From Chitinophagales bacterium (lineage in GTDB: Bacteria; Bacteroidota; Bacteroidia; Chitinophagales; UBA2359): a stretch of 64,000 nucleotides of DNA. A program made the position numbers and the translations under genes. Every line of letters begins with the position of its first letter. The first letter of the stretch is position 1. Where the stretch lies: assembly GCA_016787295.1 (NCBI GenBank), contig JAEUUX010000100.1:1-64000 (forward strand), read 5' to 3'. The notes beneath the pieces are model-generated. The model was not told the DNA's origin. It worked only from the letters and a program-made list of their open reading frames with translations, and did not search any database. Below, piece by piece: positions 325-4,699 of this stretch.

Positions 325-846
325 ATGAAAAATAAATTAATAGTATTTGTTTTATTGCTTTTATACATGAGTTGTGAACTTCCATCATCTAATAAACAGC
401 AAACTGATTTTTATCACAAATTGTTAATGGCAGTCTTAGAGGAAAAGGATAAAGGAATAGAGTACTTTGTCGAGGTGAAATCCCCTAAAATAACAGAATA
501 TAGGTTATGCTATTTGGGTTATATACAGAGTTCAAAACAGAATATAGATTTTATATATTCAACCTACTATTATGGTAATTACCAAGATGCTAAACATGCA
601 AGTTGTACTGTAGATTTATTTTTCAAAAACAAAAAAATAGGGTATTATTATATTGGCGGTGGTTTCAATGCTTTACCTCAAATAAATGGGTACGACTTGA
701 TATTTGACAATGACGATGAGGCGTGTGGTCAAAAAACATTTATTTCGTTTAGAGACTCTATTCCTAACGAAATATTTATTCATTGTAAAAAGAAAGATGA
801 AAATACAATGTCTGGTGATATTTTTACTTTTCAGAAAGAAGAATAG
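325..846 (+). CDS. Small putative lipoprotein, unknown function
   Basis: The 173-residue protein starts with a short hydrophobic segment ending in a lipobox-like YMSC, which predicts an SPII lipoprotein anchored through Cys17. No domain is recognised. The remainder is rich in Tyr, Lys and Asn, and codon use is much more AT-rich than in housekeeping genes further right, which suggests horizontally acquired DNA. It lies between the inverted-repeat element at 4-260 and the first Rhs core fragment, on the same strand as the Rhs tails. Small AT-rich genes also follow each Rhs tail downstream, so this gene could be the surviving partner (immunity-type) gene of an Rhs cassette lost to the left. That role is inference only. 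Confidence 0.6.
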   Translation: MKNKLIVFVLLLLYMSCELPSSNKQQTDFYHKLLMAVLEEKDKGIEYFVEVKSPKITEYRLCYLGYIQSSKQNIDFIYSTYYYGNYQDAKHASCTVDLFFKNKKIGYYYIGGGFNALPQINGYDLIFDNDDEACGQKTFISFRDSIPNEIFIHCKKKDENTMSGDIFTFQKEE

Positions 847-927
847 ATACACTATGAACAAATTTTTGGCGTGTTCCTAAATCTATTGGATCCAAAAAGC
901 CAATTTTATGGCACATTCACCCTCACC

Positions 928-1365
928 ACCATCTCCTCAAAAAAATGGTGCATGGTTTAGCGCCCATAATCCAATAAAAAGCAGTATATTTGCAGTATAT
1001 TTCCCCTCCTCGCCACCCAAGAACGCGGACAAAAACAATACGAACTAACCGACCACCTCGGCAACGTCCGCACCACCTTCTCCGACATCAAACAAGCCGT
1101 TGTCAAAGAACCCGAAACAGCCAAGTTAGGTAACTACACCGCCCAAGGCAACTCTGACGTAACCGTCCCCTACAACATCCTAACCGACAACGACAACTTT
1201 AAAGCCCGCAACCTCACGCTAAACAACTACTACCCCCTACGGTATGTTGCAGTTGCGCGGAGTGTGAGTACGGGGGCTTATAGGTTTGGGTACCAAGGGC
1301 AGGAACAGGATAATAAAATGGGCGGGCTGGGGCAGCATACTACTGCGCAGTTTTGGGAGTATGAT
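928..1365 (+). repeat. Rhs core direct repeat, copy 1
   Basis: This stretch is highly similar to 2539-2960, and its central part also matches 4585-4668. The similarity includes non-coding leader DNA (ACCATCTCCTCAAAAAA near 928 and the AATAAAAAGCAGTA stretch near 975) before the YD-repeat core. Repetition of leader plus core with different downstream tails indicates cassette duplication or recombination. Confidence 0.85.
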
Positions 1366-1491
1366 ACGTGGGCGGTTAAGCGGTGGAATGTGGATCCGAA
1401 ACCACAAGTAGGAGTAAGTGATTACGCTGTATTTTTGAACAACCCAATATATAATAACGATAGGGATGGCGATTATAGGAGCTTTTACTGA
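970..1491 (+). pseudogene. Rhs/YD-repeat core fragment, copy 1 (5'-truncated)
   Basis: An open frame with no start codon at its beginning runs from just after the in-frame stop at 967-969 to 1491. It encodes the typical Rhs-associated core: YELTDHLGNVRTTFSD, then a RFGYQGQEQDNK segment and a WNVDPKP motif, which is where intact Rhs proteins pass from shell to variable C-terminal toxin. Compared with copy 2 it carries a one-base insertion and a one-base deletion near 1237-1255 that cancel each other. The thousands of upstream bases of a full Rhs gene are missing. The frame ends at 1491, but the frame of the next ORF (1466) continues in Rhs-tail fashion, so one more frameshift near 1465-1490 separates core from tail. 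Probably a silent donor fragment or decay product. Confidence 0.8.
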
Positions 1492-2074
1492 ATATGCAGG
1501 TATTATTGGCAATAAAATGTTATTCGAGGATATGTCTTTTTCAGAAGCTAATGAAAGTTTGACATGGAAAGATGCCATCGATATTTCGGTAGCGGCTAGT
1601 TTTGGAGCAGCAAAAGGTACTCTTGATGGCGGAGCAACAACCTTTGCTACTTGGATAGCGAAACCAACAAATCAAAAGATTGTAAAAAAATTAGCCGATG
1701 TTGGCATTTCGACTGTTGAAGGCTGGTTAAAGGTATTTCTTAAGCAAGAAGATTTCGATTTAAAAAGTGTACTTGCAGGAGCGTTAACCGAAGTAGGTCT
1801 AGGTGATTTATTATCAGCCGATGCGTACAAGAATGTAGTGGAAAAAGCAACGAAAAATGCTTCTGCTGCTACAAAAAGGGTAGAAAAACTAGCAACCAGA
1901 AAAACGCCTAATCAAAAATTGATTAATACTGCCAGAAAACAAGCTGCCAATGAAAAAACCGTAGCAAAGATTACTCAAACCTTAGATGTTACTCATCAAG
2001 CAGTGACAGGAGGAGTCGCTAAAACGAATTCTAATAAGGCACAAAATGTAGCAAAAACAGAAAAACCAAAATAA
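1466..2074 (+). CDS. Putative Rhs C-terminal tail domain, copy 1
   Basis: This 202-residue ORF overlaps the end of the core fragment in another frame. Its start, with an Ala/Gly-rich IIGAFTEYAGIIGN stretch, resembles the alanine-glycine segment that follows the core in Rhs proteins, so I read it as the tail of the same protein separated by a frameshift. Next comes a predicted helical region (WKDAIDISVAASFGAAKG), also common in Rhs tails, and then a Lys-rich, Ala-rich C-terminus with no recognisable nuclease motif. The ATG at 1466 may not be a real start. The DNA is more AT-rich than the preceding core, as expected at a core/tip junction. The next gene begins 7 bp after its stop, which fits a tail/partner pair. 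Function unknown. Confidence 0.6.
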   Translation: MAIIGAFTEYAGIIGNKMLFEDMSFSEANESLTWKDAIDISVAASFGAAKGTLDGGATTFATWIAKPTNQKIVKKLADVGISTVEGWLKVFLKQEDFDLKSVLAGALTEVGLGDLLSADAYKNVVEKATKNASAATKRVEKLATRKTPNQKLINTARKQAANEKTVAKITQTLDVTHQAVTGGVAKTNSNKAQNVAKTEKPK

Positions 2075-2081
2075 TTTTTAT

Positions 2082-2444
2082 ATGCTTAAGATATTATTTA
2101 GAATTTTATTTATATGTATAGTATTAGTAAGTTTTAAAAAATATATTAATTACTCAAACAATGTTAATTTGCCTATAAAATATACATACATTGATACTAC
2201 TATCGATAATTGGCGCGGAACGAGTTATTTGATAAGAGTATTGTACAATGGTAGAAATTATGAAACTTATATAACAGAATCTATGTATGAGGGTATAAGA
2301 AATGCAAAATACCCTATGTTATACTATGCTACAGGTGAAGATGATGTATTTTCCGAATGGGAAATACGTAGACACTTTAGAATTGCTGTTGTATTTTCAA
2401 TATTCTTAGTTCTAACTTTTATTCCCATAAAAAAAGAGACTTGA
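2082..2444 (+). CDS. Small two-TM protein following Rhs tail 1
   Basis: The 120-residue protein has a hydrophobic N-terminal helix (roughly residues 3-20) and a second near the C-terminus (roughly 98-114, AVVFSIFLVLTFIPI). Between them is a hydrophilic, Tyr-rich region of about 75 residues probably exposed on one side of the inner membrane. The start lies 7 bp downstream of the Rhs tail stop, so the two are likely co-transcribed. Polymorphic-toxin cassettes commonly put an immunity gene exactly there, and the second Rhs tail at 4000 is likewise followed by a two-TM protein. The sequence itself is not recognised; the immunity role is inferred from position only. Confidence 0.6.
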   Translation: MLKILFRILFICIVLVSFKKYINYSNNVNLPIKYTYIDTTIDNWRGTSYLIRVLYNGRNYETYITESMYEGIRNAKYPMLYYATGEDDVFSEWEIRRHFRIAVVFSIFLVLTFIPIKKET

Positions 2445-2481
2445 AATTACACATCTTTAAAAGGTTTATATTTTTGAACAT

Positions 2482-2524
2482 AAACCTCCGCAACGCCCAT
2501 AGCACTTTCTCCGACATCAAACAA
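2482..2524 (+). repeat. Degenerate mini-fragment of the Rhs core
   Basis: A 43-bp stretch reads as a worn copy of the core segment at 1056-1094: it keeps the CTCCGCAACG...CTTTCTCCGACATCAAACAA pattern but has lost a few bases inside. It lies directly before the leader of copy 2, so it looks like the truncated end of another cassette joined to the next leader. Confidence 0.55.
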
Positions 2525-2538
2525 AAACCCAACCCGCA

Positions 2539-2960
2539 CCATCTCCTCAAAAAATTTGGTGCAGGGTTTAGCGCCCATCATTCAATAAAAAGCAGTACAT
2601 TTGCAGTATAATTCCCCTCCTCGCCACCCAAGAACGCGGACAAAAACAATACGAACTAACCGACCACCTCGGCAACGTCCGCACCACCTTCTCCGACATC
2701 AAACAAGCCAAAGCTACAGACACACCTCCATTAAATAGCAACTACACAGCCCAAGGCAACCCTCGTGACCGTACCCTACAACCTCCTAACCGACAACGAC
2801 AACTTTAAAGCCCGCAGCCTCACCCTCAATAATTACTACCCTTATGGTATGTTGCAGAGTGCGCGGAGTGTGAGTACGGGGGATTATAGGTTTGGCTACC
2901 AAGGACAGGAACAGGATAATAAAATGGGCGGGCTGGGGCAGCACCTCAACTACACCTACC
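2539..2960 (+). repeat. Rhs core direct repeat, copy 2
   Basis: Second long copy of the leader-plus-core repeat (see 928-1365). It matches copy 1 from the ACCATCTCCTC leader through the GGGGCAGCA triplet region near 2943, after which the two copies diverge completely. The end of identity marks the junction between conserved core and variable tail. Confidence 0.85.
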
Positions 2961-4000
2961 GAAACCATGACAGTTGGACAATACGCTTTGGTGCCGTAGA
3001 CCCGCTGGCTGCGAAGTATCCGCATAATAGTACCTATGCTTTTAGTGAAAATAGGGTGATTGATGGGATTGAATTGGAAGGGTTGGAGTGGGTTGCCACT
3101 ATTAATAGTCCTAATTTAGGAAATAGATTTAAAGCGGCTCTTCAAGCATTTGATATTTATTATGCTAGAAATATATTTACTACAGCTTTGTATAATAGAT
3201 TAAGCGATTTTGATTACAAACAGATGACAAAATCCTGTGACAATTGTGTAATGTCGGGTAATATGGAAGCATCGCTAATATATGATAAAACTGCCCCACC
3301 AGGGCTTACGATTAATTTTAATGTTGGGGCAGGTGGCAGGGGTGCTGATGATCCATATACCCAAATATGGTCACAAACTATGCACTTCGAACGTGGTGCT
3401 ATTTTAGGACAAGAGGATAAAGATTTTCCTATCGATGTAAGGGTTATAAATAATCCCGAATATGGAGATTATTATAGAAACTTCGATTTTATAGGCGAAT
3501 ATGGAGTATCTTCAACATCTGTGAATATTGGAGGTATTATTAGAGGAAAAGGACTTTGGGGATCTCATCAAGCTAGCTCTGGATATGTTAATGGATATTT
3601 AAAAGGCAGCGGTTTTGTGCAGTACTCTACTTCTGTTGCACTAGGAGCTAACTCTTCACGAGATCTTTTTGGTGTTTCTAGAGCAGGAGGAGGGTTGTGG
3701 GGTATAGCTTCTGAGAAAAAAACTGCTTATGGACCAGACATCCTTGCAGGTTGGGGAAATCAAGCAGGTGGTAGCTATGGTGGCAAAGGAGTATTTGGCG
3801 AAGGTGGATATTGGGGAAGTTTTAATGAATATCATGATGCAGCCATGCTACGTCCTCGTGATTCGAAAGCCAATATGTCAGGTATCTACACAGGATTTGG
3901 CGTTGGATTTAATCTACATTTGGGCAGTGATCCTACACGAGCAGGCGGAGGTTCTCTTTCAGGTGCAGTTACTTACTCTACATTAGACAGTACCAAATAA
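2612..4000 (+). pseudogene. Rhs core copy 2 fused to a glycine-rich variable tail
   Basis: Bases 2612-2764 encode the same TDHLGNVRTTFSD core as copy 1, but relative to copy 1 two bases are missing near 2760-2775. The longest open frame therefore begins only at a GTG at 2765 (411 residues to 4000). It contains the end of the core (RFGYQGQEQDNK, then a DPLAAKYPHNSTYAFSENR region, which is the canonical Rhs core end), followed by about 300 residues of different sequence. The tail is glycine-rich, with aromatic/Gly repeats around residues 230-390, and matches no toxin family I know. It could be a beta-rich pore-forming or adhesive domain. The upstream part of the Rhs gene is missing, so expression of an intact toxin is doubtful, but the tail frame is fully open. 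Confidence 0.7.
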
Positions 4001-4006
4001 TTTAGC

Positions 4007-4462
4007 ATGAAACCAGCATTACTAATCTTTTTTATTAGTTTTATTATTCTTCTGTATAAAAGGAAACACCTATCAGAAGGAGAAGATATTGTAGATTACT
4101 ACATACCACCTATTTTCTTTGCTTTCATGATCATTAGTAGTATCTATGCTAATTATTCGTATAGAAAAGCAGAAGAAGCACTTACATTTACTGGAATAGT
4201 AGAGTATTGTGCTTTAGATGGTAAAGTACGAGTCGTCGTTTTGGAAAATAATTTTGAATTTATACTTCCTTGTGTTACTTATTTTGGGTATGGTTTAATT
4301 CAGAAAGGAGATTCTGTAATCAAAACAAAAGGCACACGTTTATACACTTTTATTTCTGCCGACAAAATAGATACTATTGTGTTAGATGCAGATAACTGTC
4401 CTGACGATTTAATCATTAATTCGTTGATTCAAAAAAGGTTAGACCCTTTGCGAAATAAGTAG
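4007..4462 (+). CDS. Small two-TM protein following Rhs tail 2
   Basis: The 151-residue protein has two hydrophobic helices (about residues 3-16 and 33-48) and then a soluble C-terminal domain of about 95 residues with alternating beta-like segments. It begins 6 bp after the stop of the glycine-rich Rhs tail, repeating the arrangement of tail 1 and its partner at 2082. No homology is seen to the 2082 protein beyond size and membrane topology, as expected if each partner matches its own tail. Family unknown. An immunity or accessory role is inferred from synteny, at low certainty. Confidence 0.6.
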   Translation: MKPALLIFFISFIILLYKRKHLSEGEDIVDYYIPPIFFAFMIISSIYANYSYRKAEEALTFTGIVEYCALDGKVRVVVLENNFEFILPCVTYFGYGLIQKGDSVIKTKGTRLYTFISADKIDTIVLDADNCPDDLIINSLIQKRLDPLRNK

Positions 4463-4584
4463 TTGTACTTTTTTGCTTCTGAGTCTCAAAATTTGTTTAA
4501 CACATTCTCACAGAGCAGGAAATTATCTCCTGCTCTACCGTGTTGCGCTCGCCAAAAATTATTTCCCACTACCTTCCAAGTATC

Positions 4585-4699
4585 CCAACAAAAACAATAC
4601 GAACTAACCGACCACCTCGGCAACGTCCGCACCACCTTCTCCGACATCAAACAAGCCAAAGCTACAGACCATTTTCAGATTTTGAATATGCTTAATTAA
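4585..4699 (+). pseudogene. Rhs core fragment, copy 3 (truncated)
   Basis: Bases 4585-4668 repeat the core DNA encoding YELTDHLGNVRTTFSD plus the AKAT residues shared only with copy 2. The frame then runs into unrelated sequence and stops at 4697-4699. There is no tail and no partner gene: the array ends here, just before the strong hairpin at 4717. The frame is open upstream to 4463, but that part looks like random coding. Confidence 0.75.

Follow-up and report, generated by a model that had tools for sequence, protein, structure and literature searches.

Orphan Rhs tip modules with probable immunity genes dispersed around a single main Rhs gene in a Chitinophagales genome

Anatomy of the array

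The window examined in the present study comprises 64,000 nucleotides (positions 1 to 64,000) of contig JAEUUX010000100.1 from a Chitinophagales bacterium (GCA_016787295.1). Near its start lies an array of two cassettes, each consisting of an Rhs core, an unrelated tail and a small membrane-protein gene, together with two core scraps (Table 1). Leader plus core copies occupy 928-1337 and 2539-2943, and the scraps fall at 2484-2524 and 4588-4669. A repeat search of the window recovered copies at 939-1098, 2550-2709 (96%) and 4498-4657 as well as the scrap at 2484-2524 (85%), with the 3' half of the core repeated at 1158-1337 and 2764-2943 (90-96%). These results bear out the first-pass annotation, which had placed the same leader and core at 928 and 2539, in part near 4585, and as a scrap near 2482. 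Its description of unrelated tails, each followed by a small gene 6-7 bp on, also holds: the ORF of tail 1 ends at 2074, 7 nt before partner 1 begins at 2082, and that of tail 2 ends at 4000, 6 nt before partner 2 begins at 4007. Neither core has an N-terminal Rhs shell upstream, as had been claimed, and the proposal that C-rich cores and AT-rich tails mark the joints agrees with an abrupt shift in G+C content there (cores 49-52%, with C alone at 27%; tails 37-40%; partners 26-31%). As a correction, the leader (about 928-1007 and 2537-2617) is not Rhs coding sequence, homology to the main Rhs gene described below beginning only at 2618.

Table 1 Features of the Rhs array and its flank in the window
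Feature	Coordinates	Strand	Evidence and remarks
Small lipoprotein-like gene, 173 aa, upstream of cassette 1	325..846	+	ORF; hydrophobic N-terminal segment ending SCE
Cassette 1 leader, non-Rhs	927..1007	+	Weak hairpin 927-950; GCGCCCATAA; promoter-like TATATTTGC at 985-993
Rhs core copy 1	1030..1465	+	Repeat; TIGR03696 E=2e-5, below cut-off
Tail 1	1439..2074	+	ORF from 1466, 202 aa; predicted helical
Partner 1, two-TM protein	2082..2444	+	ORF; TM prediction
Hairpin just 3' of partner 1	2462..2487	+	8-bp perfect stem
Core scrap	2484..2524	+	85% over 41 nt
Cassette 2 leader, non-Rhs	2531..2617	+	Hairpin 2531-2568 (z=-4.4); GCGCCCATCA; promoter-like TACATTTGC at 2596-2604
Rhs core copy 2	2618..3079	+	TIGR03696 just above cut-off; 2-nt deletion near 2763
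Tail 2, 306 aa	3080..4000	+	ORF
Partner 2, membrane protein	4007..4462	+	ORF; TM prediction
Boundary hairpin	4512..4548	+	AGAGCAGGA/TCCTGCTCT then TGTTGCGC; 0 expected in shuffles
Core scrap, third copy, without tail	4588..4669	+	100% over 82 nt

The lipoprotein-like gene upstream of cassette 1, whose product matched no family in the libraries searched, is possibly an orphan immunity gene. Positions 1-265 of the window hold a 260-bp MITE-like repeat bounded by imperfect terminal inverted repeats at 4-36 and 228-260. Full or partial copies of it number more than 15 across the genome, some of them near Rhs cassettes on contigs C146 and C193. An adjacency between contig C131 and the start of the window via a 139-bp overlap was considered and is not proven, the overlap lying within a repeat that also starts contig C32.

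Two pairs of tails and partner genes

Two TM helices are predicted for partner 1 (1-19 and 98-116); for partner 2 the prediction gives one clear helix, at 28-46, and a hydrophobic N-terminus that falls under the 19-residue threshold. The earlier description of both partners as two-TM proteins is thus certain for partner 1 and reduces to one clear helix for partner 2. A homologue of tail 1 with 50% identity, fused in frame to an Rhs core, is present in a genome of another family of the same class (G167), where a homologue of partner 1 follows directly (BLASTP E=2e-20), so that tail and partner recur as a pair. Against these homologues dN/dS was 0.17 for tail 1 and 0.30 for partner 1, both values being rough since dS exceeds 2. 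No homologue of tail 2 was found in 295 genomes of the class or 395 genomes of the phylum, nor one of partner 2 in the 295 genomes of the class. Tail 2 had no Pfam, PADLOC, PHROG or PDB match, and neither tail matched a family in the libraries searched. Weak PDB sequence matches of the tails were taken as chance, and AlphaFold single-sequence models of both tails (mean pLDDT 44 and 32) were left unused. Partner 1 and partner 2 are both probable immunity genes.

The main Rhs gene and sibling cassettes

A full Rhs locus with a matching core, which the first-pass annotation had expected elsewhere in the genome, was found on contig C212. It encodes a 3,121-aa secreted Rhs shell with a signal-peptide-like N-terminus, a PKD domain and an RHS repeat, in an open frame that runs off the contig inside the core, and the contig end is identical to 2618-2726 of the window at 109 of 109 nt. 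The shell is single-copy, a 328-aa piece of it having no other match in the genome. The tail of the main gene itself is missing, cut off by the contig break, and the array of the window lies on a different contig with no link to the main gene in the assembly. On C146 (L023, 2-1963, minus strand) the end of the main shell occurs a second time, in 5'-truncated form and starting immediately behind a boundary hairpin.

Searching the organism's own genome (5.42 Mb, draft assembly of 296 contigs) at the protein level located this core at 29 places. Of 40 genomes searched, none from the same genus, 30 had no match to it. Further modules of the core family are present on C284 (three) and C193 (six), making at least nine cassettes, with single modules on C146 and C173 and a further occurrence on C159. 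One sibling tail on C193 is an AHH nuclease (PF14412, above cut-off) and the partner in another C193 module is Imm52 (PF15579, E=6e-11), the toxin of which is given as Tox-REase-5 by Zhang 2012 (PMC3482391). These two siblings with recognised domains provide the best evidence for a toxin-immunity arrangement of the window tails and partners, and support the earlier suggestion to that effect.

Several other features of the sibling loci were recorded. The first and last 141 bp of C284 (L021, 1-6443) are the same sequence, which is absent from the rest of the genome, such that the contig closes as a 6,302-bp loop consisting solely of three complete modules. This loop may be a circle, result from a tandem repeat or be an artefact of assembly. 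The argument that this self-overlap is an assembler k-mer loop fails, as overlaps of 39, 130 and 139 bp exist elsewhere. Two C284 tails (L021:1949-3220 and L021:4272-5360) carry an HExxxH-like motif (HETIAH, HEIAAH) beside lipoprotein partners, and are by this motif possibly metallopeptidases. On C193, three tandem lipoprotein paralogues without toxins (L031:434-2688), related to the partner gene at L021:3220-3921 and with a dN/dS of about 0.5, are probable orphan immunity genes, and C131 carries immunity-like genes without toxins. At least three more Rhs-core families with orphan tips are represented on C78 (L091), C79 (L030, L092), C194 (L029, L094) and C261 (L093), C79 also carrying a run of lipoprotein-type genes without toxins.

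Leaders and module boundaries

Both leaders hold a hairpin, the GCGCCCATAA motif and the sequence TAnnTTTGC (at 985 and 2596), which resembles the Bacteroidota -7 promoter element. Upstream of window genes TAnnTTTGC occurs at 8 sites against 1.9 expected, an enrichment of about four-fold. A second boundary form, AGAGCAGGA/TCCTGCTCT plus TGTTGCGCCC, is situated between a partner gene and the next core at 4512, and recurs at several sibling boundaries. Clear hairpins were present at about 12 of the 16 boundaries examined. In a whole-genome DNA search, significant matches to both boundary forms were confined to cassettes of this family, bar one marginal short match on C137. The arrangement suggests that the leader or boundary may serve as a transcription boundary, with a terminator-like hairpin followed by a promoter. 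We rejected a reading of the hairpins as integron attC sites, their 5' side being without the complement of the GTTGCGCC motif; attC sites with complementary end boxes, as in an integron cassette array, were absent at the boundary hairpins examined.

Frame breaks and recombination

Frameshifts were confirmed in both window cores, core 1 having a compensating +1/-1 pair at the YPYGM region and core 2 a 2-nt deletion. Cassette 1 contains an extra frame break between 1439 and 1491, where the homologue reads through the corresponding stretch. Decay was compared among 11 cassettes with an assembled core, comprising two from the window, three from C284 and six from C193. The frame is uninterrupted in three of them, two on C284 plus C193_13412. 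Lesions are restricted to the core in five (window cassette 2, C284b, C193_15467, C193_11358 and C193_8986), and the remaining three have a break at the tail or within it (cassette 1 of the window, C193_7101 and C193_5120). The core or tail is therefore broken in 8 of 11 cassettes, whereas the partner gene is open in all 11; in eight cassettes the tail stays open past the final lesion of the core. About nine independent lesions in 12.7 kb of core and tail against none in 6.6 kb of partner sequence has, by our own arithmetic, a chance of about 0.02, a comparison biased in that a badly decayed partner gene might go unrecognised. With a draft of 296 contigs, some frame breaks could be assembly errors.

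One deletion is common to 6 of the 11 cores despite their differing tails and leaders, and a permutation test of the core alignment indicates recombination (0 of 1000 shuffles as low, p<0.001). The cassettes checked for it have no in-frame start codon ahead of the core. The three cassettes that are open throughout could be more than remnants.

Origin and maintenance of the modules

We consider it likely that the region is part of a dispersed orphan Rhs-CT/immunity family of the C212 main gene, made up of displaced tips whose immunity genes have been maintained. New modules of tail plus immunity gene would enter the 3' end of the main gene by recombination in the shared core, pushing older tips downstream, and duplication together with core recombination would scatter these into several arrays. 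Displaced tips would lose the shell and start and then drift, and most are probably silent, given that those inspected have neither a shell nor an in-frame start before the core. Their immunity genes would probably be kept as a defence against kin in which the old tip is still in use, and the leaders, with their hairpin and Bacteroidota-type promoter motif, may keep each partner transcribed. Where the break lies upstream in the shared core, as in cassette 2, a crossover downstream of the lesion could still transfer the tip to the main gene.

An alternative is an active silent store, in which cassettes persist mainly because they serve as donors for tip exchange with the main Rhs gene through gene conversion. 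The 100% identity of the main-gene core with cassette 2 over 109 nt, the recombination in the cores, the 8 of 11 tails open past the last core lesion (three cassettes being fully open) and the fusion of main and orphan genes demonstrated in Salmonella (PMC3967940) are all consistent with it. Three cassettes (window cassette 1, C193_7101 and C193_5120) are nevertheless broken at or inside the tail, partner genes are better preserved than the donors, and no exchange of tips was seen, the tail of the main gene being missing. In cassette 1 the break lies inside its own tail, such that a crossover in the shared core cannot restore the frame and no working toxin could be donated. Retention of immunity after displacement explains open partners in 11 of 11 cassettes, alongside a broken core or tail in 8 of 11, better than a pure store does, and we regard the store as unlikely. 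The first-pass annotation had favoured a silent store feeding the main Rhs gene; the matching C212 core, the single-copy shell and the recombinogenic core speak for that part of its account, and the tail break of cassette 1 and the partners that outlast their tips speak against a pure store.

It is very unlikely that the array is neutral debris, that is, functionless duplicated Rhs 3' ends of which the partner genes are equally a part. Core scraps without tails, the frameshift common to 6 of 11 cores and the MITE-like repeats nearby would fit such an origin, but the partner ORFs are open in 11 of 11 cassettes, pair 1 is conserved across families, and known toxin and immunity domains were identified among the siblings. 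We consider highly improbable a mobile store, in which modules exit an array as circles (compare the 6.3-kb loop of C284) and re-enter at Rhs cores, the leader with its hairpin and promoter acting as a dedicated boundary. That a leader promoter drives short core plus tail toxins of the cassettes' own from internal start codons is scarcely credible, since the TAnnTTTGC motifs in the leaders, the three fully open cassettes and an ATG within the core at YPYGM are set against frame breaks in 8 of 11 cassettes, no in-frame start before the core where checked and no secretion signal.

Relation to known systems and implications

The window cassettes are orphan Rhs-CT/immunity modules and represent a large new example of a kind already known. 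Their cores are without a shell, a matching full rhs gene is present, and unrelated tails are each closely followed by a small gene; homology of a tail to full Rhs tips elsewhere was found for tail 1 only, in G167. The orphan rhs-CT/rhsI modules of Enterobacteriaceae (Poole 2011, PMC3150448; Koskiniemi 2014, PMC3967940) are alike in their shell-less core, unique tail and adjacent small gene, and further in usually having no translation start, in their long homology to the main rhs gene and in forming arrays of many modules. For a related cdi locus, 11 orphan pairs have been reported (PMC3150448; PMC3967940). Return of a tip to the main gene via a shared-core crossover has been shown for Salmonella (PMC3967940), and earlier work had suggested for orphan modules both a reservoir function and the role of an immunity repertoire (PMC3150448). 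The present modules differ in belonging to a Bacteroidota-type secreted Rhs, in occupying several unlinked arrays, in that a non-Rhs leader bearing a hairpin and a promoter-like motif lies where modules meet, and in that their toxicity is putative.

A likeness also exists to the standalone toxin cassettes and polyimmunity loci of Zhang 2012 (PMC3482391), where cassettes are said to replace the main toxin domain; toxin-less clusters of immunity genes and standalone cassettes have been reported across bacteria, Bacteroidetes included (PMC3482391). In contrast to those cassettes, window tails 1 and 2 match no family in the libraries searched. In the T6SS effector arrays of Vibrio cholerae (Kirchberger 2017, PMC5361080), a new module similarly displaces the effector and the old immunity gene stays, whereas in the present arrays most of the old tails have also survived, many of them with an open frame. 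The TANFOR toxins of Bacteroidetes (Jana 2020, PMC7073777) resemble the present system in being large secreted proteins of Bacteroidota whose C-terminal toxins vary and which have an immunity gene downstream. The main gene described here differs in having PKD and RHS repeats, and TANFOR (TIGR02542) was not matched in the 3,121-aa protein by an NCBIfam scan, in which only the YD repeat scored above cut-off.

Together, these data describe a Bacteroidota genome in which numerous orphan Rhs tips and their probable antidotes accompany one main gene. Both pairs of tail and partner in the window are candidate toxin-immunity families outside the libraries searched. The antidotes look better preserved than the tips, which is relevant to the question of whether such modules are retained as weapons or as shields.
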